A stretch of DNA of 22,301 nucleotides, from IMG/VR virus record IMGVR_UViG_3300009183_004431, positions 1 to 22,301 of that record. One strand, given 5' to 3'. Made by a program: the position numbers and the translations under genes. Position 1 is the first letter of the stretch. Each line of letters opens with the position of its first letter. The notes under the pieces were generated by a model. That model was not told where the DNA came from. It worked only from the letters and a program-made list of their open reading frames with translations, and did not search any database. Shown piece by piece: positions 7,703 through 22,301 of this stretch. This DNA is from a virus.

Positions 7703-8049
7703 TTAAATCTATTGCTCCCATGGGCCGCTACATGCAAACTACTGGTGGTAGCCCGATGACACCATATATCAGTCCCGGAGCACAAGGTGCTGGCCAAGTT
7801 AGATACAATACTAATGCCAGTAACATGGAAGTTTGGGATGGTGTTGCTTGGAAGGAAATCAGTGCCAACTATGCCAGCATTGGATTAACTGGCGAAGCTG
7901 AATCGTTGTTGGATTGGGTTCGAGTCAAACGTGATGAAGAGACCAAGTTCAAATCTTTAATGGAATTGCACCCAGGCATCCAAGACTTGAAAGAAAAATT
8001 AGATATGATGGTTGCGTTGGTGACAAAGGAGCAAGATGGAACAAGATAA
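7699..8049 (+). CDS. Phage protein with fibre/decoration-like RYNT...WDGVAW motif
   Basis: 116 residues in a tight overlapping array. Residues about 28-55 read GQVRYNTNASNMEVWDGVAWKEI. This recalls a short motif often seen in phage tail-fibre, head-fibre and other virion surface proteins (G-x-R-Y-N-T followed by an aromatic strand ending in W). The C-terminal half is helical and charged (DWVRVKRDEETKFKSLMELH, then KEKLDMMVALV). It may be a small virion or decoration protein, but it is placed among non-structural genes and no full homologue is recognised. Overlaps the dpdA-like gene by 14 bases. Confidence 0.7.
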   Translation: MIKSIAPMGRYMQTTGGSPMTPYISPGAQGAGQVRYNTNASNMEVWDGVAWKEISANYASIGLTGEAESLLDWVRVKRDEETKFKSLMELHPGIQDLKEKLDMMVALVTKEQDGTR

Positions 8050-9553
8050 TTTAACAGCAAAACAAAACGACTACGCAGTATTTTTACCTGCCATCAGCAG
8101 TTTTTATTCCACGTATGTGGGCAAACAGAGATTTGAAAAATTTGTGCCCGATGATCGTATGCCTGCTGGCCTCCAAGACATGGAACAATTAAATTGGCTA
8201 AACAGTCAAAAAGCATTGTTTCCCTACAAGTGGAGCCTGTACTCTGCAGGACACGCTGATTTAGATTTAACACGCAAATCTCCCAAAGAAGACATGGTTC
8301 GCAATCGTGAAGCTGGCACAACATTGTTGTGTGACTCAGGAGGGTTCCAAATTGCCAAAGGTGTTTGGCCCGGAGAGTGGGCCAACCCCAAAGACAAGAA
8401 CGCTGAAAAGAAACGCAGAGCTGTGTTGGAATGGCAGTGCGGTATTGCCACACATGGCATGACCATGGATATCCCCACTTGGACTTGTACCAATCCTGAG
8501 TGGGCCAAAGCATCAGGCATCTACAGCTACGATGATGCTGTAAATGCCACCAAGTTCAACAATGAATACTGGATGCACAATCGACACGGCGATACTAAAA
8601 TCCTAAATGTATTACAGGGTGCCAACCATGCTGATGCAGATCATTGGTACGAGACCATGAAGGACTACTGTAATCCCAACAAGCATCAGCGTCCGTTCGA
8701 TGGATGGGGCATGGGTGGACAAAACATGTGTGATGTTCACTTGGTGTTGCGACGCCTAGTAAACCTCATGCATGATGGATTGTTGGAATCGGGCTTGCAC
8801 GATTGGATGCACTTCTTGGGCACTAGCAAATTAGAGTGGGCAGTGTTGCTCACTGACATTCAACGTGCTGTACGCTATCACCACAACCCCACATTTACAA
8901 TTAGTTTTGATTGCGCAAGTCCTTTCCTGGCCACTGCAAATGGACAATTGTATCACAGCATTGTCACTAAAAATCGTGACAAGTGGAGTTATCGTATGAG
9001 CTCTACTGTGGACAATAAAAAATACGCAGTTGATAGCAGATTGTTCGGCGATGCTGTACGCCAAGATGGTATCCACAAAGTGTTTGAAGATAGCCCAATT
9101 TCACAACGTCTCAAAGTTTCAGATATTTGTTACTACAAGCCCGGTGACCTAAATAAAATTGGCAAGGAAGGCAAGACATCGTGGGACAGTTTCAGCTACG
9201 CATTACTAATGGGTCATAATGTTTGGATGCACCTTGAAGCAGTGCAACGAGCAAACCGAATCTATGATGGTGGTGAAGGGCCAGACATGCTGTTGCACCC
9301 AAATGACCGTTGGTATGATTTCCGTAGTGTAATTAATCGAGTATTTGCGGCCCGGGATCGCCAGAAGAGCTTGCAAATAATTGATGATCATGCTAATATA
9401 TGGGAACGTGTGATTGGCACCCGTGGCTATACCGGTAAGCGAGCAGTGAATGCTCATACCATGTTTAACAACTTGTTTGAGGTCGACAACTCCTCAGACG
9501 CCGATGATGACCTTAACCCAGAACTGCTAGAAGCATTAGAGGACAGTGTATAA
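8036..9553 (+). CDS. dpdA: DpdA-type 7-deazaguanine DNA transglycosylase (TGT paralogue)
   Basis: 505 residues. ATG 8036 has AAAGGAG nine bases before it. Hallmarks of the tRNA-guanine transglycosylase barrel are present in order: CDSGGFQ (D100, the base-recognition or acid/base Asp), NVLQG, a GMGG substrate loop (G225-G228), and ISFDCASPF with the likely nucleophile D292. H394 in MGHNVWMHLEAVQ aligns with the TGT zinc histidine, but the CxCxxC zinc motif is missing (only one Cys, in DICYY). Extra length and this divergence point to the DpdA branch, which swaps guanine in DNA for preQ0 or a derivative, rather than to a bacterial tRNA enzyme (about 375 residues). Modification protects phage DNA from restriction. 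FolE later in the window fits this. A tRNA-directed role cannot be excluded. Confidence 0.85.
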   Translation: MEQDNLTAKQNDYAVFLPAISSFYSTYVGKQRFEKFVPDDRMPAGLQDMEQLNWLNSQKALFPYKWSLYSAGHADLDLTRKSPKEDMVRNREAGTTLLCDSGGFQIAKGVWPGEWANPKDKNAEKKRRAVLEWQCGIATHGMTMDIPTWTCTNPEWAKASGIYSYDDAVNATKFNNEYWMHNRHGDTKILNVLQGANHADADHWYETMKDYCNPNKHQRPFDGWGMGGQNMCDVHLVLRRLVNLMHDGLLESGLHDWMHFLGTSKLEWAVLLTDIQRAVRYHHNPTFTISFDCASPFLATANGQLYHSIVTKNRDKWSYRMSSTVDNKKYAVDSRLFGDAVRQDGIHKVFEDSPISQRLKVSDICYYKPGDLNKIGKEGKTSWDSFSYALLMGHNVWMHLEAVQRANRIYDGGEGPDMLLHPNDRWYDFRSVINRVFAARDRQKSLQIIDDHANIWERVIGTRGYTGKRAVNAHTMFNNLFEVDNSSDADDDLNPELLEALEDSV

Positions 9554-12907: not shown

Positions 12908-13855
12908 TTGAAAATAGTTTATGTTACCGGATGCTTGGGATTTATAGGTGGACATGTAACTCAACAATGTCTTGAACGTGGTTGGCGTGTGATGGGTGTG
13001 GACAAAAAAACCTACGCTAGCAACCCAGAGTTGTTAGATGAGTTTGAGGCAAATCCAAACTTTAAATTTTTACAACAAGATATCAATGATCTTGAATTGC
13101 TCTACGACTGTGATTATGTGATTAACACCGCGGCTGAATCTCATGTAGACAACAGCATCATGAGTAGCGATGTGTTTTTGCGGAGTAACATTAATGGAGT
13201 GCATCACTTGCTTGAATTAATTCGAGCAATGCCGCCAGTTCGTAGACCAATTTTCTTGCATTTCAGTACTGATGAAGTTTATGGAGACATTGTTGAAGGT
13301 AGTCACACCGAGCTTGACATCCTAACACCAAGTAATCCATACAGTGCCAGCAAGGCTGCAGCCGACATGCTGGTCTTGGCCTGGGCACGTACTCACAACA
13401 TTCGTTATGTGATTGTTAGACCCACAAACAATTATGGTATTGGTCAGTATGTAGAAAAACTAATTCCAAAATCAATCAAATTCTTATCACTAAATCGCAA
13501 AATTGATTTGCATGACAATGGAAATCCCAGTCGAGTTTGGCTGCATGCAGGTGACACTGCTCGTGCTGTGATACACATCATTGATCAAGGGGTCACTGAT
13601 GAAATCTACAACATAAGTGGCAATGCTGAAATGCCAAATCGAGAAGTAATAAAAAAAATACTGTCTTGCTATTTTGGAGTTGATCACGATCATGACTGGG
13701 AATCTTTTGTTACCCCCAGTTCTAGACAAGGGCAAGACGTAAGATATGCCATCGATGATAGCAAACTAAAAAAACTGGGCTGGTCAGCAACTGCTGATTT
13801 TGATCAAGAATTGAGCCAGGTAGTCAACCACTACAGGAATAATTTTGTATGGTAA
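12908..13855 (+). CDS. NDP-glucose 4,6-dehydratase, RmlB-like
   Basis: 315 residues from TTG 12908, set by AAGGA (12896-12900) seven bases earlier; the first residues already form the nucleotide-binding strand. It is an extended short-chain dehydrogenase with TGCLGFIGG (NAD binding), DKKTYASN and AAESHVDNSI as in RmlB, STDEVYG with the dehydratase-specific Asp-Glu pair (D122, E123), YSASK (Y145, K149) and RPTNNYG. These predict conversion of an NDP-glucose to the 4-keto-6-deoxy sugar, the first step of most deoxysugar routes. The nucleotide (dTDP, UDP or CDP) is not certain. It is somewhat shorter than E. coli RmlB (361). It feeds naturally into the E1-type enzyme two genes on. Confidence 0.9.
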   Translation: MKIVYVTGCLGFIGGHVTQQCLERGWRVMGVDKKTYASNPELLDEFEANPNFKFLQQDINDLELLYDCDYVINTAAESHVDNSIMSSDVFLRSNINGVHHLLELIRAMPPVRRPIFLHFSTDEVYGDIVEGSHTELDILTPSNPYSASKAAADMLVLAWARTHNIRYVIVRPTNNYGIGQYVEKLIPKSIKFLSLNRKIDLHDNGNPSRVWLHAGDTARAVIHIIDQGVTDEIYNISGNAEMPNREVIKKILSCYFGVDHDHDWESFVTPSSRQGQDVRYAIDDSKLKKLGWSATADFDQELSQVVNHYRNNFVW

Positions 13856-14574
13856 AGAATTATTTGGTATGTTCGGTTCGGCCTATTTCAGAAAATTGGA
13901 TGGGCAATGATAGTTCACAATTATATTTAGACTATCAAGAAATGTATCATTTAAGACTGGCCAGTTTTCGACATTTTGTAAAAGAACCATTTGAAACAAT
14001 ACTGTGGACGGATCCTGCCACCAACGGCGATACTTGTGCATATCAAAATTGGCTAGATATCAAAGAATTGTGGCACCGGGAACCTTGCAACATATTTTGG
14101 GCAGGGGCCGACACACTTATGATCCGACCCACAGAATTGTTTTCTGACAGATTCTCCCAGTATCGATTGTTTAATTATACTGATCCAAAAAGTTATAAAG
14201 ATTGTATACACCATTTCAACGATGATATACAATATTATCCACATACCATGTTGGACCAGGTATGGAAACTTGGAGAAGACTGGCTAGAACTAAGAGAAAC
14301 TCATCCTGACCGTAATTGGGGTTTTGATCAGTTAAGGCATAATGCTATGTTTTGGAGCCAAGACATTGACGAGTCTGATCGATTACATCCAGAGATGGCC
14401 TATCAAGCAATGCGTTTAAGGTTCTTGGATCAAAATGCAATAACTTGGCACGATGAATGGAACCGTATATCCATAAATCAGGCACACATATTGCATTTTC
14501 ACGGCAGTCGAGGTAGTCAGGAAGTGATAAACATCATGAGAGAAATTTCTAATCAGTTTGGAATTAAATTATGA
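13849..14574 (+). CDS. Glycosyltransferase-like (GT-A type) protein, tentative
   Basis: 241 residues, overlapping the dehydratase by seven bases, with AGGAA upstream. The strand NIFWAGADTLMIRPTELF (81-98) resembles the metal-binding strand of GT-A enzymes that use simple donors (AD-x-L in place of DxD). It is followed by an aromatic acceptor-like region (YRLFNYTD) and WGFDQLRHNAMFW, which recalls the DQ segment after the active site in GT8/GT32-type proteins. The C-terminal HILHFHGSRG contains the late histidine strand also common in that group. Location inside the sugar island supports the reading. A glycosyltransferase of another family, or a non-enzymatic relative, is possible. Confidence 0.65.
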   Translation: MVKNYLVCSVRPISENWMGNDSSQLYLDYQEMYHLRLASFRHFVKEPFETILWTDPATNGDTCAYQNWLDIKELWHREPCNIFWAGADTLMIRPTELFSDRFSQYRLFNYTDPKSYKDCIHHFNDDIQYYPHTMLDQVWKLGEDWLELRETHPDRNWGFDQLRHNAMFWSQDIDESDRLHPEMAYQAMRLRFLDQNAITWHDEWNRISINQAHILHFHGSRGSQEVINIMREISNQFGIKL

Positions 14575-15893
14575 AACAAATATTAGAAGACATTAAAAAA
14601 TATATTGATGCTAAACATGCTGCCAAGACTTGGGAAGCAGGTAAAGACTTTGTAAATTATGCAGGTCCGCACTTCGACTCAGATGAGTATGTGGCTGCCG
14701 CAGAAGCATTGTTAAACGGTTGGCTAGTAATGGGCAATAAAAGTCTAGCATTTGAACGCAGTTTTCCTGAACAGTTTGGCAAGACTCGTGGAGTGTTGAC
14801 CAATTCAGGTAGTAGTGCCAACTTGCTCATGATGGCTGCCATGAAGTCCAAGCGTGGTTACAATTTTCCTGCTGGCACCAAGGTGTTGATGCCCATTGCT
14901 GGATTTCCCACCACATTGAATCCAACTATTCAAAATAATTTTACACCTGTATTTTGCGACATTGAAATTGATACCTTGAACATTGATCTAGTTCAGGCTG
15001 AACAACTACTTGCCAACGATCCTGACATACGAATTATTACATTTGCTCATGTGTTGGGCAATCCTCCTAACATGGACCATGTCATGGAACTAGTTGAACG
15101 ACACAATCTTGTGTTGCTTGAGGATTGTTGCGATGGCCTAGGTACCACCTACAAAGGACAACCCCTGGGCAGTTTTGGTCTCATGGCATCATGCAGTTTT
15201 TATCCAGCACATCATATGACCATGGGTGAAGGTGGTTTTGTGGCCATGAACGATGCTCAACAAGAAGTTATTGTGCGCTCGCTACGTGAATGGGGTCGTG
15301 GATGCTACTGTGTTGGACCCGATGCCAACAAGTTAAAATGTGGCACATGCGGCAAACGTTTTAACGAGTGGATCCCAGAAATGCCCGGAGAAATATTTGA
15401 CCACAAGTATGTGTATGACGAGATTGGTTACAATCTAAAACCCATCGAACTACAAGCAGCCATGGGTCTTGAACAAATCAAGAAACTGCCCGAAATACAT
15501 GCTTTGCGTCAACGCAACTACAATTTGTTGTTTGCCATTTACGAAAAGTACGAAGAGTTTTTCCACTTGCCACGTGCTAGAGAACATGCAGATGTAAGTT
15601 GGTTTGCATTTCCTCTTACCATTAGAGCAGGAGCACCGTTCACACGCAACGACATTGTAGACTACTTGGAAGAGCGTTTGATTCAAACTCGTCCTTACTT
15701 TGCTGGTAACATCATGTTGCAACCTGCTTACAGTCATTTGATGAATCCTGCAGACGCACGTGACAATTACCCTGTGGCCACTTTCACCATGAAGAACACA
15801 TTCTTCCACGGATGCAGCCCAGTTATCACGCCGGAACAAATTGAGTACATTGGTGAACAGGTGGATGGTTTTATGAGTTTGTTTGGAGGTTAA
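14571..15893 (+). CDS. rfbH: CDP-4-keto-6-deoxyglucose-3-dehydratase (E1) family, RfbH-like
   Basis: 440 residues, the size of RfbH/E1. It has the DegT/StrS aminotransferase fold, but the PLP lysine is replaced: SFYPAHHMTMGEGG has H214-H215, where the first His takes the Lys position. This marks PMP-dependent 3-dehydratases. The iron-sulfur ligands keep the E1 spacing: C187, 57 residues, C245, one residue, C247, then C260 in CGTCGKRF, with an extra Cys at 257 and a slightly longer loop than E1 (12 instead of 7 residues). The reaction removes the C3 hydroxyl of a 4-keto-6-deoxy sugar with electrons from a separate reductase (E3), not seen here. Related SpnQ uses a TDP sugar, so the nucleotide is open. 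Overlaps the previous gene by ATGA. Confidence 0.93.
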   Translation: MKQILEDIKKYIDAKHAAKTWEAGKDFVNYAGPHFDSDEYVAAAEALLNGWLVMGNKSLAFERSFPEQFGKTRGVLTNSGSSANLLMMAAMKSKRGYNFPAGTKVLMPIAGFPTTLNPTIQNNFTPVFCDIEIDTLNIDLVQAEQLLANDPDIRIITFAHVLGNPPNMDHVMELVERHNLVLLEDCCDGLGTTYKGQPLGSFGLMASCSFYPAHHMTMGEGGFVAMNDAQQEVIVRSLREWGRGCYCVGPDANKLKCGTCGKRFNEWIPEMPGEIFDHKYVYDEIGYNLKPIELQAAMGLEQIKKLPEIHALRQRNYNLLFAIYEKYEEFFHLPRAREHADVSWFAFPLTIRAGAPFTRNDIVDYLEERLIQTRPYFAGNIMLQPAYSHLMNPADARDNYPVATFTMKNTFFHGCSPVITPEQIEYIGEQVDGFMSLFGG

Positions 15894-15894
15894 T

Positions 15895-16902
15895 ATGCGT
15901 GTTTGCGATTGGATTGCTGAATATTTGTATAGTATAGGTGTATTGCGGGTGCACGGTCTTATGGGCGGTGGTGCAAGTGGACTTAATGATGGGTTTATTA
16001 AACAAGGTAAGATTCAATACATCTGCTATCATAATGAACAAGGCGCAGGTCATTCTGCAATAGGGGAAGCTAAATTTTCCGGAAACATTGCAGTTGTCAA
16101 TCCCACAACTGGATGTGCAGGAACAAATTGCGCTACATCTGTTTTAAATGCTTGGCAAGATTCCACGCCAGTATTATTCATTTCCGGCAATGTTAAAACT
16201 TCTACTTGTTCTAGTTTTATAAATGAAACCAAGAATTTAAACATTCGAAAATATGGCGTACAGGAACACAATGTTGTTGAAACTTATAAGTCAATGACAA
16301 AGTTTAGTAAGTTTATTACTAGAGCGGAAGATGTTCCTTTTATGTTACAATTAGCTATCCACATTGCTAAGAGCGATAGACCAGGCCCTGTTTGGTTGGA
16401 CATTCCTAGCGATGTTCAAACAGCACAAATGCCAAAAGAGTATTTAGAGTTTGAAATTGATAAACGAAAACGTCCTATTGATGTTGCACCTATTAAACGA
16501 GCTCTTGAAAAGTCTCAACGACCTATTGTAGTTGCAGGGTATGGTATCCGACAATCTAATTCAGTTCAGAAATTCAATCAGTTTCTTGAGAAATATAAAA
16601 TCCCATACGTTAGTACATATGGCGCAAGAGATTATAATGATTTCTACCATCCATTGAACGTAGGCGCAGTTGGAATTAAAGGTAGTCGTGCAGGTAACTT
16701 TGCCATGCAGAATGCCGATCTATTATTGATTTTAGGTAGCAGCCTGGGAAGTAGTGTTATTGGTTATGACCCTAAACAGTTTAGTCCTGAGAGTTATAAA
16801 ATCATGATTGACATTGATGCAGACGAATATAACAAAAATATTATTCATATAGACGAAGCATACAATACTACATTGACTGAGTTTTTTGGAGCAATGCTAT
16901 GA
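15895..16902 (+). CDS. Thiamine-diphosphate enzyme, PYR and middle domains (first half of split enzyme)
   Basis: 335 residues from ATG 15895; GGAGG (15885-15889) lies inside the end of the E1 gene, and TTG 15883 would be an unneeded extension. The N-terminal half is the pyrimidine-binding domain of acetolactate synthase-like enzymes: HNEQGAGHSAIGEA with catalytic Glu E48, then NPTTGCAGTNCATSVLNAW and TPVLFISG. The second half is the middle domain (RPGPVWLDIPSDVQ, RPIVVAGYG, DLLLILGSSLGSS, IDIDADE). It ends where a full-length enzyme would run on into its diphosphate-binding domain, which is the next gene. Such enzymes transfer two-carbon units from pyruvate; YerE does so onto the product of E1 to make yersiniose. 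That role is likely but inferred. Confidence 0.88.
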   Translation: MRVCDWIAEYLYSIGVLRVHGLMGGGASGLNDGFIKQGKIQYICYHNEQGAGHSAIGEAKFSGNIAVVNPTTGCAGTNCATSVLNAWQDSTPVLFISGNVKTSTCSSFINETKNLNIRKYGVQEHNVVETYKSMTKFSKFITRAEDVPFMLQLAIHIAKSDRPGPVWLDIPSDVQTAQMPKEYLEFEIDKRKRPIDVAPIKRALEKSQRPIVVAGYGIRQSNSVQKFNQFLEKYKIPYVSTYGARDYNDFYHPLNVGAVGIKGSRAGNFAMQNADLLLILGSSLGSSVIGYDPKQFSPESYKIMIDIDADEYNKNIIHIDEAYNTTLTEFFGAML

Positions 16903-17642
16903 CAAGAGACGAATGGATTGAAAAATGCAACCACTGGAAAGCCAAATGGCCGGTAATGCAGGAAGAATATCGTCCAACTGAAAATGATTTTCAGTTAAAC
17001 ATCTATGCCATACTTGATGCAGTTAATCAACATAGTTCAGCCGATGACATTTTAATGGGCGATGCCGGCAGCATTAGCTATGCAGGTCCTGTTGCATTAA
17101 ATGCTAAACACGGACAAAGATTTATTTTTAGTCCAGCTCAAGCTGACATGGGCTGGGCCTTGCCTGGAGCAATTGGAGTTAGTTTGGCAAGCAAACAGCC
17201 TGTTATTGCTATCATTGGCGATGGTAGTTTTATGAGTAACATTCAAGAATTAGCAACAGTCAAACAACACGAGTTGGATATCAAGTTTGTTATTCTCAAT
17301 AACAACGGTTACCTAAGTATTAAAAATACACAGACAAAATACTTTGAAGGAAGGGTGCATGGGACCAGTTCCGAAAGTGGACTATGGTTTCCCAGCTTTA
17401 AAAGTATTGCAGTAGCATTTGGCATGCCTTGTGTGGATATTAGAACAAAAGAAGATCTGCGTCTTCATTTTCCCAATGCCCTTAAGAAAAAAGGTCCAGT
17501 CATTATAGACTGCCAATGTCTTAACGAGCAAGAAATACTTCCTGCACAAGCATTAAAAAATGGAAAACAAGCAGGACTACATGATCTAACGCCATTCTTG
17601 TCAGATGAAGAGTTAGCACAGGAAATGATTGTTAAAATTTAA
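16899..17642 (+). CDS. Thiamine-diphosphate enzyme, PP domain (second half of split enzyme)
   Basis: 247 residues. The start ATG overlaps the preceding stop (ATGA) and has its own GGAG eight bases upstream, so it is probably translated independently. It contains the diphosphate/Mg-binding motif GDGSFMSNIQELATVKQHEL (107-126) closed by LNNNGY (N134-N136), preceded by MGWALPGAIGVSLA, all typical of acetolactate synthase-like C-terminal domains. With the previous gene it adds up to about 582 residues, the normal length of a single-chain enzyme. The active site forms between PYR and PP domains, so the two products must assemble. The first 35 residues correspond to the usual interdomain linker (EWIEKCNHWKAKWP). 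Confidence 0.9.
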   Translation: MTRDEWIEKCNHWKAKWPVMQEEYRPTENDFQLNIYAILDAVNQHSSADDILMGDAGSISYAGPVALNAKHGQRFIFSPAQADMGWALPGAIGVSLASKQPVIAIIGDGSFMSNIQELATVKQHELDIKFVILNNNGYLSIKNTQTKYFEGRVHGTSSESGLWFPSFKSIAVAFGMPCVDIRTKEDLRLHFPNALKKKGPVIIDCQCLNEQEILPAQALKNGKQAGLHDLTPFLSDEELAQEMIVKI

Positions 17643-17648
17643 ATCACC

Positions 17649-18332
17649 ATGACAAATTCCTCATACCAAAAGATTCCTGGACTAGAAAACCTAATTGAAT
17701 TAAGAGACAGTTCGCCTTACCCGGAATTAAAAAATCTGTGGTGGCCTCAGTACGATTGGAGCATGTGGGATTACATGCACAAGCACCGCATAACCCCAGA
17801 GTTTTTTGATGAGTTGATGACACATGTCACTGGCAGTGGTGTTGTGATACAAGCCGGCGGCAACTGTGGACAGTATGTAAGGCAGTTTAGTCAAAGATTT
17901 GGTACAGTGTATACATTTGAACCAGATCCAATAAATTTTTTGTGTTTGACTTTGAACTGCGGTAATAACGTAATAAAAACACAGGCCTGTGTGGGCAATG
18001 AAAGAAAATTTGTAAACATTCACAGAGGCCATGATTCGGGCGCTATTCACGTAAGCGGCTCAGGTAATGTACCCACAGTAATCATTGATGATATGAATTT
18101 ACCGGCCTGTGATCTCATACAGTTAGATATTGAAGGCTATGAACTTTTTGCGTTGCAAGGCGCACAACGTACTATTGAAAAATATCATCCCTTACTTATG
18201 ATAGAATGGTACGAGCCGTGGGCCGTAAGATACAACACAAATAAAAAAATGCTTGACAAGTTCTTAAATGATCTAGGATATAGTCAAGTGTTAAGCCACA
18301 CATCTGATCTTATTTACAAATACAAATCATGA
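17649..18332 (+). CDS. FkbM-family methyltransferase
   Basis: 227 residues. No clear ribosome binding site precedes ATG 17649, so it may depend on coupling to the gene six bases upstream. The fold motifs are clear: GVVIQAGGNCGQYVRQF (64-80, SAM loop), VYTFEPDP (87-94, acidic end of strand 2), TVIIDDMNLPACDLIQLDIEGYE (143-165, with the family-typical QLDIEG-E stretch), then ALQGA and PLLMIEW. FkbM enzymes are O-methyltransferases, often acting on sugars in polysaccharide or antibiotic clusters; here it could methylate the sugar or glycan made by this island. The N-terminal 50 residues are aromatic-rich (WWPQYDWSMWDYM). Confidence 0.9.
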   Translation: MTNSSYQKIPGLENLIELRDSSPYPELKNLWWPQYDWSMWDYMHKHRITPEFFDELMTHVTGSGVVIQAGGNCGQYVRQFSQRFGTVYTFEPDPINFLCLTLNCGNNVIKTQACVGNERKFVNIHRGHDSGAIHVSGSGNVPTVIIDDMNLPACDLIQLDIEGYELFALQGAQRTIEKYHPLLMIEWYEPWAVRYNTNKKMLDKFLNDLGYSQVLSHTSDLIYKYKS

Positions 18333-19258
18333 AAACAGTATTGATTACTGGAGCCAATGGATTCATTGGACACTACTTAGTAGAGGAATTTCTTAAAGAC
18401 CATCGTGTGATCTGCGTGGTACGACCTGGTTCAATTAATATGGAACGGATCAACCACATGCTTGATCGTGTCACTGTTCTTGAGCACGACATTAAAAATT
18501 CTTGTAGGCACTTGCCACCGGCAGATATTATATTACACGCTGGCGCTAATCCCAGTTCAGCCGACAGCTTGAGTGACCCCACAGCGTCTGTCATGGACAA
18601 TGTGCTGGGTACATTGAACTTGTTGGAACATGCCCGTCATACTGGAGTTGAAAGATTTGTATATTATAGCAGTGCCGAAGTGTTTGGCCCTATATCCATT
18701 GGACAGGATAGTCAACCCAACGATGCCTACAACAGCAATAGTCCTTATGCGGCTGGAAAAGCAGCCGGTGAAGAATTATGCCTGGCCTATGCCAACTCGT
18801 TCAATGTCCCTGCCAGCATCATACACATCAACAATACCTTTGGGCCACGTTGCCAAAGCAATCGCTTGCCGGTGATTATCATACGCAAATTACTCAACAA
18901 CGAAACTGTAGATATACACGTGGGCGCCAGCGAGATAATCGGCGGACGTCGTTGGTTCTATGCCGGCGATGTGGCCAGCCATACTCGATTTATATTAGAA
19001 ACACAATCCGTCCGTTGTGAAAAATGGAACAGTGCTGGACCAAAATTTATTGACAATCTAGAGTTTGCAAAGTTGATTGCACAGTTGATGGGCAAAGAGT
19101 TAAAGTATCGATTGGTGCCAATTGACCGGCCTGGCCATGATTTATGTTTCTCTGTGGATCCCAGTAAACTGTATGATCTAGGTTGGAGAGAGCCAGTATC
19201 ATTTGAACAACGATTGTTGCAAACAGTCAACTGGTATTTGGAAAATCCCAATTGTTAA
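18329..19258 (+). CDS. NAD-dependent epimerase/dehydratase (extended SDR)
   Basis: 309 residues, beginning in an ATGA overlap with the methyltransferase. TGANGFIG (7-14) binds NAD(P); the catalytic set is S114/S115 in YYSSAEVFG with Y140 and K144 in PYAAGKAAGE. The position that is Asp in 4,6-dehydratases (STDE) is Ala here (SSAE), so a plain 4,6-dehydratase is less likely than a decarboxylase, epimerase or reductase. HINNTFGPR and the C-terminal RPGHDLCFSVDPSKLYDLGW are typical of nucleotide-sugar SDRs. It could process a keto sugar later in the same pathway. Exact substrate unknown. Confidence 0.87.
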   Translation: MKTVLITGANGFIGHYLVEEFLKDHRVICVVRPGSINMERINHMLDRVTVLEHDIKNSCRHLPPADIILHAGANPSSADSLSDPTASVMDNVLGTLNLLEHARHTGVERFVYYSSAEVFGPISIGQDSQPNDAYNSNSPYAAGKAAGEELCLAYANSFNVPASIIHINNTFGPRCQSNRLPVIIIRKLLNNETVDIHVGASEIIGGRRWFYAGDVASHTRFILETQSVRCEKWNSAGPKFIDNLEFAKLIAQLMGKELKYRLVPIDRPGHDLCFSVDPSKLYDLGWREPVSFEQRLLQTVNWYLENPNC

Positions 19259-19277
19259 TTAACATTATATAAATTTT

Positions 19278-20090
19278 ATGAAAATACTAATCACAGGCGC
19301 CGGGGGCTTTGTTGGATCTTACCTAACAAACAATCTACCTGGGTACGATGTCACTGCCATCAATCATCAAGACTTGGATTTGTTAGATCGAGAGATGGTA
19401 CAGGCCTTTTTTGCTGGCAAAAACTTTCATACCATAATACATTGTGCCGCTTATGGACGCAGGGCTGTTCGTACATTAAATCCAACAATATTTCACAATA
19501 ATCTTTTTATGTTTAACAACCTGGCCAGTTGTAAACAGCATTACCAACAGTTTATAAATCTGGCATCAGGCGCTGAGTTTGATGTTGATGCAGTCAATGA
19601 TCAAACCACTGAGGAACAATTGTTTCAACGGTATCCGGCCCAATCTCATGGTTGTAGTAAAAATATTATTGCTAGACTAGTGACACAAATACCAAACTTT
19701 TATAACTTGCGAATGTTTGGTAGTTTTGGTCAACCTGATACAGCATATATTAGCCCGTTACAAGATGTGGTAAAAAATATATCCACCAATCGCCGCTTTC
19801 GATTTGAGAATGACAGATTTCTTGACTTGTTTAGTTTGCATGATCTTGCAGTGGTAATTGATCAAACCATACAAGGTAATTTAAAATGCAATGATGTAAA
19901 TCTTGTCTATGATCAGAAACATAGACTAAGTGATGTATTGCGTGTATACTACGAGCAACACGGAGTTGATCCCAGCCTTGTAAAATTTTTATCCACCAGT
20001 GATCATTGTTTCACTGGCAACGGTGCTAGATTAGCATCACATAATTTTCCCCTATGGGGCCTTGAGCGATCTTTGAAAGAATATATATGA
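19278..20090 (+). CDS. Extended SDR lacking the catalytic tyrosine
   Basis: 270 residues. TGAGGFVGSYL (7-17) gives the nucleotide-binding loop, and IIHCAAYG, FINLASGAEFD and LRMFGSFG follow the order seen in RmlD/GDP-fucose-synthase-like reductases. The expected Tyr-x3-Lys is HGCSK: H124 stands where the Tyr should be (codon CAT, one base from TAT), while K128 is kept. So the enzyme may be impaired, use His in its place, or be a non-catalytic partner; a sequencing error would also explain it. No ribosome binding site is visible before ATG 19278, 19 bases after the previous gene. The stop overlaps the next ATG (ATGA). Confidence 0.82.
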   Translation: MKILITGAGGFVGSYLTNNLPGYDVTAINHQDLDLLDREMVQAFFAGKNFHTIIHCAAYGRRAVRTLNPTIFHNNLFMFNNLASCKQHYQQFINLASGAEFDVDAVNDQTTEEQLFQRYPAQSHGCSKNIIARLVTQIPNFYNLRMFGSFGQPDTAYISPLQDVVKNISTNRRFRFENDRFLDLFSLHDLAVVIDQTIQGNLKCNDVNLVYDQKHRLSDVLRVYYEQHGVDPSLVKFLSTSDHCFTGNGARLASHNFPLWGLERSLKEYI

Positions 20091-21046
20091 CAAAAACTGT
20101 AGTTGTTACCGGAAGCTCGGGCTACATTGGAGGGCAAACTGCACTTCAATTAAACGATTTAGGTTACCGAGTAATTGGTGTTGACATTCGTCCATGTACT
20201 ACAAATGTACAAACGGCATTGTCTCACGTATACCAAGGAGATTTTGCCAGCCAAGGTGCCATTGACTTTATGTTTCAGCATCAGCCATCGGCAATTATTC
20301 ATTGTGCCGGAACAAGTTTAGTTGGTCCTAGTGTCAGTGATCCGGAACTGTACTATCAAAACAACTTTGTACGTACAAAAAAGATGATAGATGCTGTTGT
20401 TTCGGCCAAGTTGCAATCTAGCATTCGAATCATTTTCAGCAGTTCGGCATCGGTCTACGGCGAACCCATCATGGGTGCGTGTCAGGAAGAAGATCCAGCA
20501 CTGCCATTAAGTCCCTACGGCGAAAGCAAACTCATGACTGAGATGATGTTGCAAAGTTATTTCCGTGCATATGGATTGCAACCAGTGATTTTCCGATACT
20601 TCAATGCTTGCGGTGCAGATATTCAAGCACGACATGGTCAAGAACCTGGTGCCACACACATCATTGCTAGAGTGTTAGAAAGCCTGCGTGACGACAAAGA
20701 GTTTGTGTTAAACGGGAATCAATTTAACACCTTTGACGGAACCTGTGTTCGAGATTACGTGCACGTTGAGGACATTGCAAGAGCACATATTCGTGCGCTG
20801 GATGATGATATTCCAACCGGTGTCTACAATCTTGGCAGCAACAAAGGTACCAGCAATCAGGAAATTATTTCTGTAGCCGAATCAATTACTGGACGCAAAC
20901 TCAAAGTTACCATAGGTGATCCTAGACCCGGAGATCCAAGCGAGCTCACAGCCAATGCTGGCAGATTTGAAAAAGTCGCTGGCAAGTGGCAATATAATAC
21001 ACTTCACTACATTGTGCAACATGCCTGGAATTGGTATGTTCGATAA
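20087..21046 (+). CDS. galE: UDP-glucose 4-epimerase-like (GalE family)
   Basis: 319 residues. TGSSGYIGG (8-16), SSSASVYGE (118-126), YGESK (Y144, K148), FRYFNACGAD (GalE signature), GATHIIARVL, then GTCVRDYVHVEDIARAH, all in the GalE order. The catalytic Ser/Tyr/Lys set is intact. GalE interconverts UDP-glucose and UDP-galactose (or the GlcNAc/GalNAc pair, or a uronic acid) by oxidation and reduction at C4. It is a little shorter than E. coli GalE (338). It would adjust the stereochemistry of a sugar in this island. Whether the nucleotide is UDP here is assumed from the family. Confidence 0.92.
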   Translation: MTKTVVVTGSSGYIGGQTALQLNDLGYRVIGVDIRPCTTNVQTALSHVYQGDFASQGAIDFMFQHQPSAIIHCAGTSLVGPSVSDPELYYQNNFVRTKKMIDAVVSAKLQSSIRIIFSSSASVYGEPIMGACQEEDPALPLSPYGESKLMTEMMLQSYFRAYGLQPVIFRYFNACGADIQARHGQEPGATHIIARVLESLRDDKEFVLNGNQFNTFDGTCVRDYVHVEDIARAHIRALDDDIPTGVYNLGSNKGTSNQEIISVAESITGRKLKVTIGDPRPGDPSELTANAGRFEKVAGKWQYNTLHYIVQHAWNWYVR

Positions 21047-21632
21047 AATACTACAGTTTGAACGAGCACTAGCAGAGTTTACAGGTGCTCCGTATGCAAT
21101 CATGACCGATTGCTGTACACACGCTATTGAAATGTGTTTACGATATGATCAAGTCAAGGAATGCAAGTTTACTCCTTATACCTACTTGAGTATTCCAATG
21201 ACCATGCACAAGCTAGGTATCAAATACGAGTACCTTGATCATGCCTGGCAACGTTGGATTGGTGAATATCCCATACTTGAAACACGCATTTGGGACAGTG
21301 CTCGCAGACTTGAACAGGACATGTATCGCCCAGATACACTAACCTGTTTGAGCTTTGGACATGGCAAGCCACTCCACATCGGCCGTGGTGGAGCTATCTT
21401 GTTAGATGATGTAAAAGCGTACGATACTATGCTAGCACAACGTTACGATGGCAGAGATTTGACCATCACGCCGTGGGAATCACAACAGGTGTTTCGAGTT
21501 GGCTATCACTACAAACCCACCATCGAAGAAGCCATTCAAGGCCTTGCATTGTTAGAAGGTGTCAAGGCAAATCGGCCAACTCCCGTCCCAGTAGATTATC
21601 CAGATTGTAGAAAAATAACTATTGTGCCTTGA
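21036..21632 (+). CDS. Miniature DegT/DnrJ/EryC1-like PLP protein
   Basis: About 198 residues from ATG 21036 (overlapping GalE by 11 bases); ATG 21021 and a start further up at 20916 are possible but overlap more. It has the main marks of sugar aminotransferases in compressed form: GAPYAIMTDCCTHAIEMCLR (18-36, phosphate-binding turn), D87 in WDSARRLE (PLP pyridine Asp), and LSFGHGKPLHIGRGG with the likely PLP lysine K111, then VGYHYKPTIEEAIQGLALLE. The family is normally 370-440 residues; the central strands and the whole C-terminal small domain are missing. The open frame has no internal stop. It may be a genuine mini-enzyme, a PLP-binding regulator, or a decaying gene. Confidence 0.75.
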   Translation: MFDKILQFERALAEFTGAPYAIMTDCCTHAIEMCLRYDQVKECKFTPYTYLSIPMTMHKLGIKYEYLDHAWQRWIGEYPILETRIWDSARRLEQDMYRPDTLTCLSFGHGKPLHIGRGGAILLDDVKAYDTMLAQRYDGRDLTITPWESQQVFRVGYHYKPTIEEAIQGLALLEGVKANRPTPVPVDYPDCRKITIVP

Positions 21633-21663: not shown

Positions 21664-21702
21664 ATGGCAATCCACTGCCTTAACATCGGAGATTATGATT
21701 GA
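21664..21702 (+). CDS. Possible leaderless 12-codon leader ORF ahead of folE
   Basis: The ATG at 21664 lies where transcription from the promoter at 21629-21657 should begin, so the message would start with or very near this codon. It encodes 12 residues (MAIHCLNIGDYD) and its TGA stop overlaps the TTG start of folE by four bases (TTGA), the overlap form used for translational coupling. It may raise or regulate folE translation. It could equally be chance in a 35-base leader. Confidence 0.3.
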   Translation: MAIHCLNIGDYD

Positions 21703-22301
21703 AAAAAGAGTTTGCACCACATCCAGTGTTTCACTCGGATACCAAAAAGAAATTTATACCAGACCGCCACGGCGATACAGTCACAGACACATTAGCAATT
21801 ACAACAGCAACTGAAATTATGTCAGACAAAGATTACAAAGAAGGTTACCTAGGCGATGCTATTCGCTTTAAAATGAAACGTGACAACAAACGTTTTTGGG
21901 CCGGCGACAACGTCAGTGACTATCTGCACGATGGTGATGTAGAACGACTGATTGACGAAGCCGCAGAAGCATTTGAAACTGTGTTAGATCGATTGCTTAT
22001 TGATCGTGAAACAGATCCCAACTCTCAAGGCACGGCTCGACGTCTTGCTAAAATGTACTTTAACGAAATAATGGCAGGAAGATATGAACCGGCACCCGAC
22101 GCAACAGCATTTCCCAATGACTCAACGGACCGCTACGAAGGAATGCTTGTGGTACGTAGTGAGCTTCGCAGTATGTGTAGTCATCACCACCAACCTGTCA
22201 GTGGCGTTGCTTATATCGGGATTATTGCCGCTCAAAAGCTCATTGGCCTTAGCAAGTACACTCGTATTGCTCAGTGGTGTGCTCGTCGTGGCACACTACA
22301 A
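21699..22301 (+). CDS. folE: GTP cyclohydrolase I (FolE), 3'-truncated by the window
   Basis: The first 201 residues are present; the gene runs off the right edge. TTG 21699 is chosen because GGAG (21688-21691) is seven bases away; ATG 21695 leads to another frame that stops early, and the next in-frame ATG (residue 41) has no binding site. LIDEAAEAFETVLDRLLIDR (84-103) and TARRLAKMYFNEIMAGRY (112-129) match the FolE helices. VRSELRSMCSHHHQPVSG carries the zinc ligands C160 and H163, then IGLSKYTRIAQWCARR is the signature after them. The usual Cys-Glu-His-His is Cys-Ser-His-His-His. About 50 extra N-terminal residues precede the core compared with E. coli. Converts GTP to dihydroneopterin triphosphate, the first step to folate and 7-deazaguanines. 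Confidence 0.93.
   Translation, partial: MKKEFAPHPVFHSDTKKKFIPDRHGDTVTDTLAITTATEIMSDKDYKEGYLGDAIRFKMKRDNKRFWAGDNVSDYLHDGDVERLIDEAAEAFETVLDRLLIDRETDPNSQGTARRLAKMYFNEIMAGRYEPAPDATAFPNDSTDRYEGMLVVRSELRSMCSHHHQPVSGVAYIGIIAAQKLIGLSKYTRIAQWCARRGTLQ

Follow-up and report, generated by a model that had tools for sequence, protein, structure and literature searches.

A putative C-branched dideoxysugar cassette with an exchangeable thiamine diphosphate enzyme in giant phages

Background

Do phages build branched-chain sugars of their own? Sugars branched by thiamine diphosphate (ThDP) enzymes have previously been known from bacterial lipopolysaccharide and from antibiotics. Three ThDP classes have been listed as acting on keto-sugars in this way, namely the YerE-like enzymes, the alpha-keto acid dehydrogenases 2 and the split-gene transketolases, the last being only proposed (PMC12247030), and rfbH by itself appears in lists of viral auxiliary genes (PMC10653327, PMC11295528). 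The question is raised by IMG/VR virus record IMGVR_UViG_3300009183_004431, whose whole length of 22,301 bases, a fragment of a giant phage, is referred to here as the window. The original prediction had placed three adjacent enzymes of a branched dideoxysugar pathway, akin to that of yersiniose, at 12908-17642: an RmlB-like 4,6-dehydratase, an E1-type C3 dehydratase and an acetolactate-synthase-like ThDP enzyme.

Our analysis makes it probable that the phage carries here a cassette for making a C-branched (3,6-)dideoxysugar and transferring it to a glycan. The evidence is drawn from the sequence: the gene set, its conservation, the splitting of the ThDP gene, the swapping of ThDP enzymes between related phages, and YerE-like kinship.

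Results

The dehydratase core

All three enzymes are present in the predicted interval, although the first two are separated by a glycosyltransferase-like open reading frame (ORF; 13849-14574) and the ThDP enzyme is made up of two genes. The E1-type assignment itself holds. The protein, here called RfbH, passes the curated cut-off of model NF011936 (431 versus 423 bits), and its best solved relatives are the E1 structures 3bcx and 3bb8 (E value 1e-94). The lysine that would bind pyridoxal phosphate is replaced by His214, in SFYPAHHMTMGEGG, which aligns with the E1 histidine. Four cysteines are arranged as Cys187-x57-Cys245-x1-Cys247-x12-Cys260; the iron-sulphur (Fe-S) pattern of E1 is C-x57-C-x1-C-x7-C, so that only the final spacing is longer. 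The HH signature of RfbH recurs in 156 phage ORFs, and its ratio of non-synonymous to synonymous substitution (dN/dS) is ~0.03.

The RmlB-like protein scores 300 bits against the deoxythymidine diphosphate (dTDP)-glucose 4,6-dehydratase model TIGR01181 and 68 against the model for the cytidine diphosphate (CDP)-glucose enzyme; being under the TIGR01181 curated cut-off of 365, it is termed RmlB-like and not filed as an equivalog. All ten of the PDB matches listed for it are dTDP-glucose 4,6-dehydratases, and its relatives occur in 82 loci. Because this neighbouring dehydratase is of the dTDP type, a dTDP-linked substrate is favoured for RfbH.

A ThDP enzyme encoded by two genes

Immediately downstream of RfbH, Pfam places TPP_N and TPP_M at 15883-16899 and TPP_C at 16899-17639, on two ORFs in different frames. 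For the first of these, the N-subunit, ATG 15895 was preferred to TTG 15883 as the start codon, with a GGAGG ribosome site immediately upstream. The second, the C-subunit, is preceded by a GGAG sequence 7 bases ahead of its start. Every split locus compared has the same ATGA junction, and nearly all have a GGAG-like sequence 6-7 bases upstream. The catalytic glutamate, Glu52 of the N-subunit, is invariant, and the C-subunit carries the ThDP motif GDG...NN (GDG at 107-109, NN at 134-135), with a stretch, NNxGYLSIKxTQ, that is similar in JanthE. The R domain is present and retains GSRAGNF. Both halves are under purifying selection, with dN/dS values of 0.06-0.08 for the N-subunit and, against its nearest relative, ~0.1 for the C-subunit.

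A single chain of ~600 residues is usual for YerE-like enzymes, although not defining; two ORFs are found instead in all close phage relatives, and the bacterial relatives with a complete ORF have a single one. In the tree the split has a single origin (support 100/99), with the fused phage protein L071 as sister, nested in a bacterial clade. Sequencing error or frameshift was rejected as its cause on the grounds of the identical ATGA overlap and frame, identities of 63-100% and low dN/dS, and a pseudogene was rejected on the grounds of the same two-ORF layout in all close relatives. A programmed -1 frameshift is less likely: since no slippery heptamer was seen immediately ahead of the stop and the second start has a ribosome site of its own, two separate proteins are the more likely products. 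PHROG 11199, which has no assigned function, matches both halves.

The two genes also differ in their recent history. At the nucleotide level, identity to L003 is 50-76% over the first half and, from ~16954, mostly 89-98% over the second (one 90-base step is at 74%); against L082 it is the first half that is closer. Across 15874-17642 the first-half gene is closest to L082 and the second-half gene to L003. On the basis of this mosaic, the gene for the first half seems to have been exchanged independently of the second.

Kinship with YerE-like enzymes

The best PDB relative of the N-subunit by sequence is JanthE, whose structures 8rph, 8rpj and 8rpi are also its top Foldseek matches; the C-subunit likewise matches 8rph best (E value 5e-34, next match 1e-19). 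Structure 8rph is that of JanthE, a characterised YerE-like enzyme (PMC12188165). In the ThDP tree the window protein falls in a bacterial clade that is often RfbH-linked and is set apart from E. coli IlvB, IlvI, Gcl, PoxB and Oxc (99/94). This agrees with the kinship originally proposed, in that the E. coli acetolactate synthases lie outside the protein's group and JanthE is its closest solved relative. The tree was built from sequences other than YpYerE, PpYerE and ErwE.

Gene neighbourhoods point the same way. For 48 of the 80 closest bacterial relatives, an RfbH/DegT homologue is encoded no more than 8 kb away, mostly at 32-42% identity; many of the contigs are short. In L254 (Thiomicrorhabdus) and L255 (Methylophilaceae), RfbF, RfbG and RfbH score far over their cut-offs beside a YerE-like gene, and L254 has in addition an E3-like ferredoxin reductase. 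A bacterial scan with the split-clade alignment had found no relative; a broader alignment recovered them. ThDP matches in a phage collection were rejected as phage relatives: they are at most ~35% identical, many of their records are annotated as ilv or unannotated, and they were taken for host sequence.

The ThDP slot in other phages

An RfbH scan of virus contigs returned 134 relatives, of which 80 were kept. The gene slot after RfbH was counted over 92 loci, some of which recur almost unchanged in different samples; one more locus, the 93rd, is cut off by the contig edge. A ThDP enzyme lies at most five ORFs downstream of RfbH in 78 of the 92, and none lies within five ORFs in the other 14. 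The occupants are a split transketolase-like pair (22 loci), a pair resembling the alpha and beta subunits of pyruvate dehydrogenase (PDH) E1 (17), a fused YerE-like gene (7), and a split YerE-like pair, which stands by itself in 18 loci (the window among them), is accompanied by a class-I aminotransferase in 12 and occurs with a PDH pair in 2. Different ThDP classes are found beside RfbH proteins that are as much as 97.7% identical. By parsimony, at least 24 changes of slot label are required on the RfbH tree; because support is weak for many of its branches, this may be an overestimate. Searching from the other side, loci found by the transketolase-like subunit alone contained RfbH in 37 of 41 cases, whereas distant PDH-like matches (36-43% identity; L149-L201), which serve as a negative control, had none. 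As judged from their genes, then, the core is constant in more than 100 related sequences from uncultured phages, which swap the putative carbon-joining enzyme. Our strongest argument is one of context: the published list of sugar-branching ThDP classes coincides with the contents of the phage slot.

Some of these phages may also supply the acyl donor. A JanthE-like ThDP gene was found in a set of 44 contigs, nearly all of which have acetaldehyde dehydrogenase and 4-hydroxy-2-oxovalerate aldolase genes, and most an RmlB gene; a close RfbH is present in at least 29, within the stretch examined. In L057 the dehydrogenase and the aldolase both score over cut-off, and the ThDP enzyme is 71% identical to JanthE and carries the CDG motif. 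Donors of the 4-hydroxy-2-oxo acid type are preferred by ErwE and accepted by JanthE (PMC12247030, PMC12188165), and from their gene context the dehydrogenase and aldolase are predicted to supply such a donor to the JanthE-like enzyme.

Further variants of the slot were observed. A class-I aminotransferase directly precedes the ThDP gene in phage loci L022-L031, L043, L046 and L068 and in bacterial loci L248, L250, L252, L255, L256, L273 and L275; it possibly turns an amino acid into a 2-keto acid donor. A NeuB-like synthase, possibly making a different 2-keto acid donor, stands beside a fused ThDP enzyme in L039 (8232-11771), L041, where it is accompanied by a haloacid dehalogenase-type phosphatase-like protein, and L060, and in bacterial L269, L271 and L280. 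Miniature two-gene transketolase-like/PDH-E1-like ThDP enzymes without the C-terminal transketolase domain are found in L018 (8293-9377), L037 (11317-12401) and L014 (11317-12470), and L109 and L110 each carry the split transketolase-like pair in two copies (6.0-7.1 kb and 9.4-10.5 kb).

Neighbouring genes and host virus

The sugar genes form a block at 12908-21632, all on one strand (Table 1). The ORF between RmlB and RfbH, for which neither a Pfam nor a PHROG family was matched, has an AlphaFold model with a mean confidence (pLDDT) of 88.7; Foldseek aligns it with glycogenin/GT8 and with the PBCV-1 capsid glycosyltransferase 2p73 (E values 1e-6 to 2e-5, TM-scores ~0.5-0.6), making it a candidate glycosyltransferase of predicted GT-A fold. 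Beyond the ThDP genes lie an FkbM gene, which follows the slot in many related loci, three short-chain dehydrogenase/reductase (SDR) genes and a short DegT-like gene, whose start at ATG 21036 is our own reading. The first SDR has SAE in place of the dehydratase motif TDE and retains YxxxK, as read from the sequence, and has relatives in 50 loci. Upstream of the cassette is a T4-like DNA polymerase; among isolates, the jumbo phages Phosso (51% identical) and Atu_ph07 (47%) have its closest counterparts. A Radical SAM/SPASM protein was noted at 1084-2160, 5' of the polymerase.

Table 1. Features of the sugar-gene block in the window
Feature	Position	Strand	Evidence
RmlB-like NDP-glucose 4,6-dehydratase, dTDP type, TDE and YxxxK motifs	12908..13855	+	TIGR01181, PDB matches
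GT-A-fold glycosyltransferase candidate, conserved between RmlB and RfbH	13849..14574	+	AlphaFold and Foldseek
E1/RfbH-type pyridoxamine phosphate (PMP) and Fe-S NDP-4-keto-6-deoxyglucose 3-dehydratase (NDP, nucleoside diphosphate)	14571..15893	+	NF011936, PDB, residues
ThDP carboligase N-subunit, PYR and R domains	15895..16902	+	Pfam TPP_N, TPP_M; Foldseek
GGAG ribosome-site-like sequence (16888-16891) and ATGA stop-start overlap of the ThDP subunits	16888..16902	+	Junction sequences
ThDP carboligase C-subunit, PP domain	16899..17642	+	Pfam TPP_C; PDB; alignment
FkbM-family methyltransferase, putative sugar O-methyltransferase	17649..18332	+	PF05050, TIGR01444 over cut-off
SDR, candidate ketoreductase of the branch or C4 reductase/epimerase	18329..19258	+	Pfam Epimerase, NCBIfam
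RmlD-like SDR reductase	19278..20090	+	PF04321/PF01370; relatives in 35 loci
GalE-type epimerase	20087..21046	+	TIGR01179, 267.5 > 262.3
Short DegT-like protein, lysine retained, accessory	21036..21632	+	PF01041, partial match

Discussion

We infer every chemical step of the pathway, as well as its nucleotide, branch position, product and attachment site, as follows. The RmlB-like enzyme would convert host NDP-glucose, most likely dTDP-glucose, to NDP-4-keto-6-deoxyglucose, from which the PMP/Fe-S enzyme RfbH would remove the C3 hydroxyl with electrons supplied by the host. The two-subunit YerE-like carboligase would then decarboxylate pyruvate or another 2-keto acid and add the acyl unit to the C4 ketone; the branch ketone would be reduced by an SDR, the sugar methylated by the FkbM enzyme and transferred by the GT-A protein. 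In the related phages the RmlB-RfbH core would stay constant while the ThDP enzyme is exchanged, some phages having donor-making genes of their own, and the branch would therefore differ between phages. Tentatively, and with less confidence than in the cassette itself, we extend this to a combinatorial system of jumbo phages, in which a fixed RmlB-RfbH core makes a dTDP-linked 3,6-dideoxy-4-ketosugar and interchangeable carboligases from three ThDP superfamilies, including a two-subunit YerE so far known only from phages, give close relatives different branched sugars.

Several observations weigh against the proposed cassette. The phage RfbH barely clears its cut-off (431 versus 423), where bacterial RfbH scores ~750, and JanthE residues Y268 and P293, near flavin adenine dinucleotide, are apparently not kept in the window protein. 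Bacterial E1 requires an electron donor; searches for an E3-type reductase (NAD_binding_1) in 25 larger related contigs and for a Fer2 domain in 35 gave no match, nor is there a clear nucleotidylyltransferase beside the cassette, NTP_transferase matches in the larger relatives being few and weak, the contigs searched all being fragments or of unknown completeness. SpnQ-type relatives use host electron carriers, and these absences may mean that the phages draw both dTDP-glucose and electron carriers from the host. They also bear on the form of the pathway that was first suggested. The RfbF and RfbG genes of CDP-yersiniose were not found, an RmlB-like gene standing in place of RfbG; because the dehydratase is of the dTDP type, no E3 or ferredoxin was found and nucleotidylyltransferases are few in the larger relatives, the CDP/yersiniose form is not supported. 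The broader proposal of a branched-dideoxysugar pathway is supported by RfbH, the YerE-like kinship and the swapping of the slot.

Other explanations of the locus start from the same genes. Were the ThDP genes an acetolactate synthase, they would serve in branched-chain amino acid or carbon metabolism as an auxiliary metabolic gene; the best NCBIfam models of both halves are indeed acetolactate synthases, but the scores are far under the cut-offs (174 versus 738, and 106 versus 538, also 168 versus 538), the tree places the protein outside the IlvB/IlvI group, the window shows neither a regulatory subunit nor any further ilv gene, and in relatives transketolase- and PDH-like enzymes take its place beside RfbH. 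This reading is very unlikely, and we give even less credence to a bacterial or chimeric contig holding an ordinary bacterial sugar cluster. The window is a 22 kb metagenome fragment and related clusters do exist in bacteria, yet its T4-like polymerase is closest to Phosso and Atu_ph07, its gene order is shared with L024-L026, related cassettes lie on virus contigs of 100-337 kb, and the split ThDP form is in none of the scanned bacterial genomes.

Two further readings concern what the enzymes act on. RmlB and RfbH could make an unbranched 3,6-dideoxysugar while the ThDP enzyme acts on another substrate, for instance to produce an acyl or hydroxyketone building block. Loci L028, L029, L033-L036, L049 and L063, in which RmlB and RfbH are accompanied only by a short SDR with no ThDP gene nearby, fit such a division, as does cyanophage S-H68, which has a dTDP-glucose dehydratase and RfbH but no ThDP match in the stretch examined; the alternation of three ThDP superfamilies at one position beside RfbH, the pairing of YerE-like genes with RfbH in bacterial relatives, and the association of donor-making genes with the ThDP gene in JanthE-like phage loci make it unlikely. 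The branched sugar might instead be destined for the phage's own DNA or virion and not for the host surface, which is compatible with the proposed cassette and which we regard as somewhat unlikely. FolE lies at the window end (21699-22301), QueE-like genes occur in 36 related loci (e.g. L014, 13973-14836), both can serve 7-deazaguanine DNA modification, and the glycosyltransferase fold also matches a viral capsid enzyme. A 505-residue protein (8036-9553) contains the string DSGGFQ, as in tRNA-guanine transglycosylase and DpdA, by sequence reading only; it has no family or structure match, and its identity as DpdA is rejected beyond this remark. The FolE and QueE neighbours may be unrelated, and a set of FkbM, GalE, several SDR genes and glycosyltransferase genes is characteristic of surface glycans.

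If the proposed cassette is real, phages would be a source of glycan diversification, whether for receptor masking, superinfection exclusion or virion decoration; the findings suggest a previously undescribed way in which they vary a sugar of the surface or the virion. The split and miniaturised forms are natural candidate ThDP carboligases for biocatalysis, and two questions become testable: the activity of E1/RfbH on dTDP-sugars with host electrons, and the functional interchangeability of ThDP classes on one keto-sugar.

Comparison with known systems

Our literature searches, which covered open papers, found no phage with RfbH and a ThDP branching enzyme, in keeping with the novelty originally claimed for this set. 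The nearest phage systems are the RfbH clusters of isolated phages, among them cyanophages: Synechococcus phage S-H68, for example, has an RmlB-type dehydratase and an RfbH homologue (~40% identical), and differs in that no ThDP enzyme was found in the stretch examined. The branching of antibiotic sugars (aldgamycin, kibdelomycin, miharamycin; PMC12247030) is matched in related phages, though not in the window, where two-gene PDH-E1-like or transketolase-like ThDP enzymes likewise stand beside a keto-deoxysugar pathway; the phage versions are short, lack the C-terminal transketolase domain and lie beside RfbH.

The closest likeness is to the yersiniose A and erwiniose pathways (YerE, ErwE, JanthE; PMC12247030, PMC12188165), with which the window has in common a 4,6-dehydratase, E1/RfbH and a YerE-like ThDP enzyme. 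It differs from them in that the ThDP gene is split, a dTDP-type dehydratase replaces the CDP-type RfbG, and neither RfbF nor E3 was found in the phage set; moreover, the pathway is viral and its ThDP enzyme is exchanged between phages. One related phage group stands close to the JanthE system itself, with a ~70% identical JanthE homologue that carries the CDG motif.

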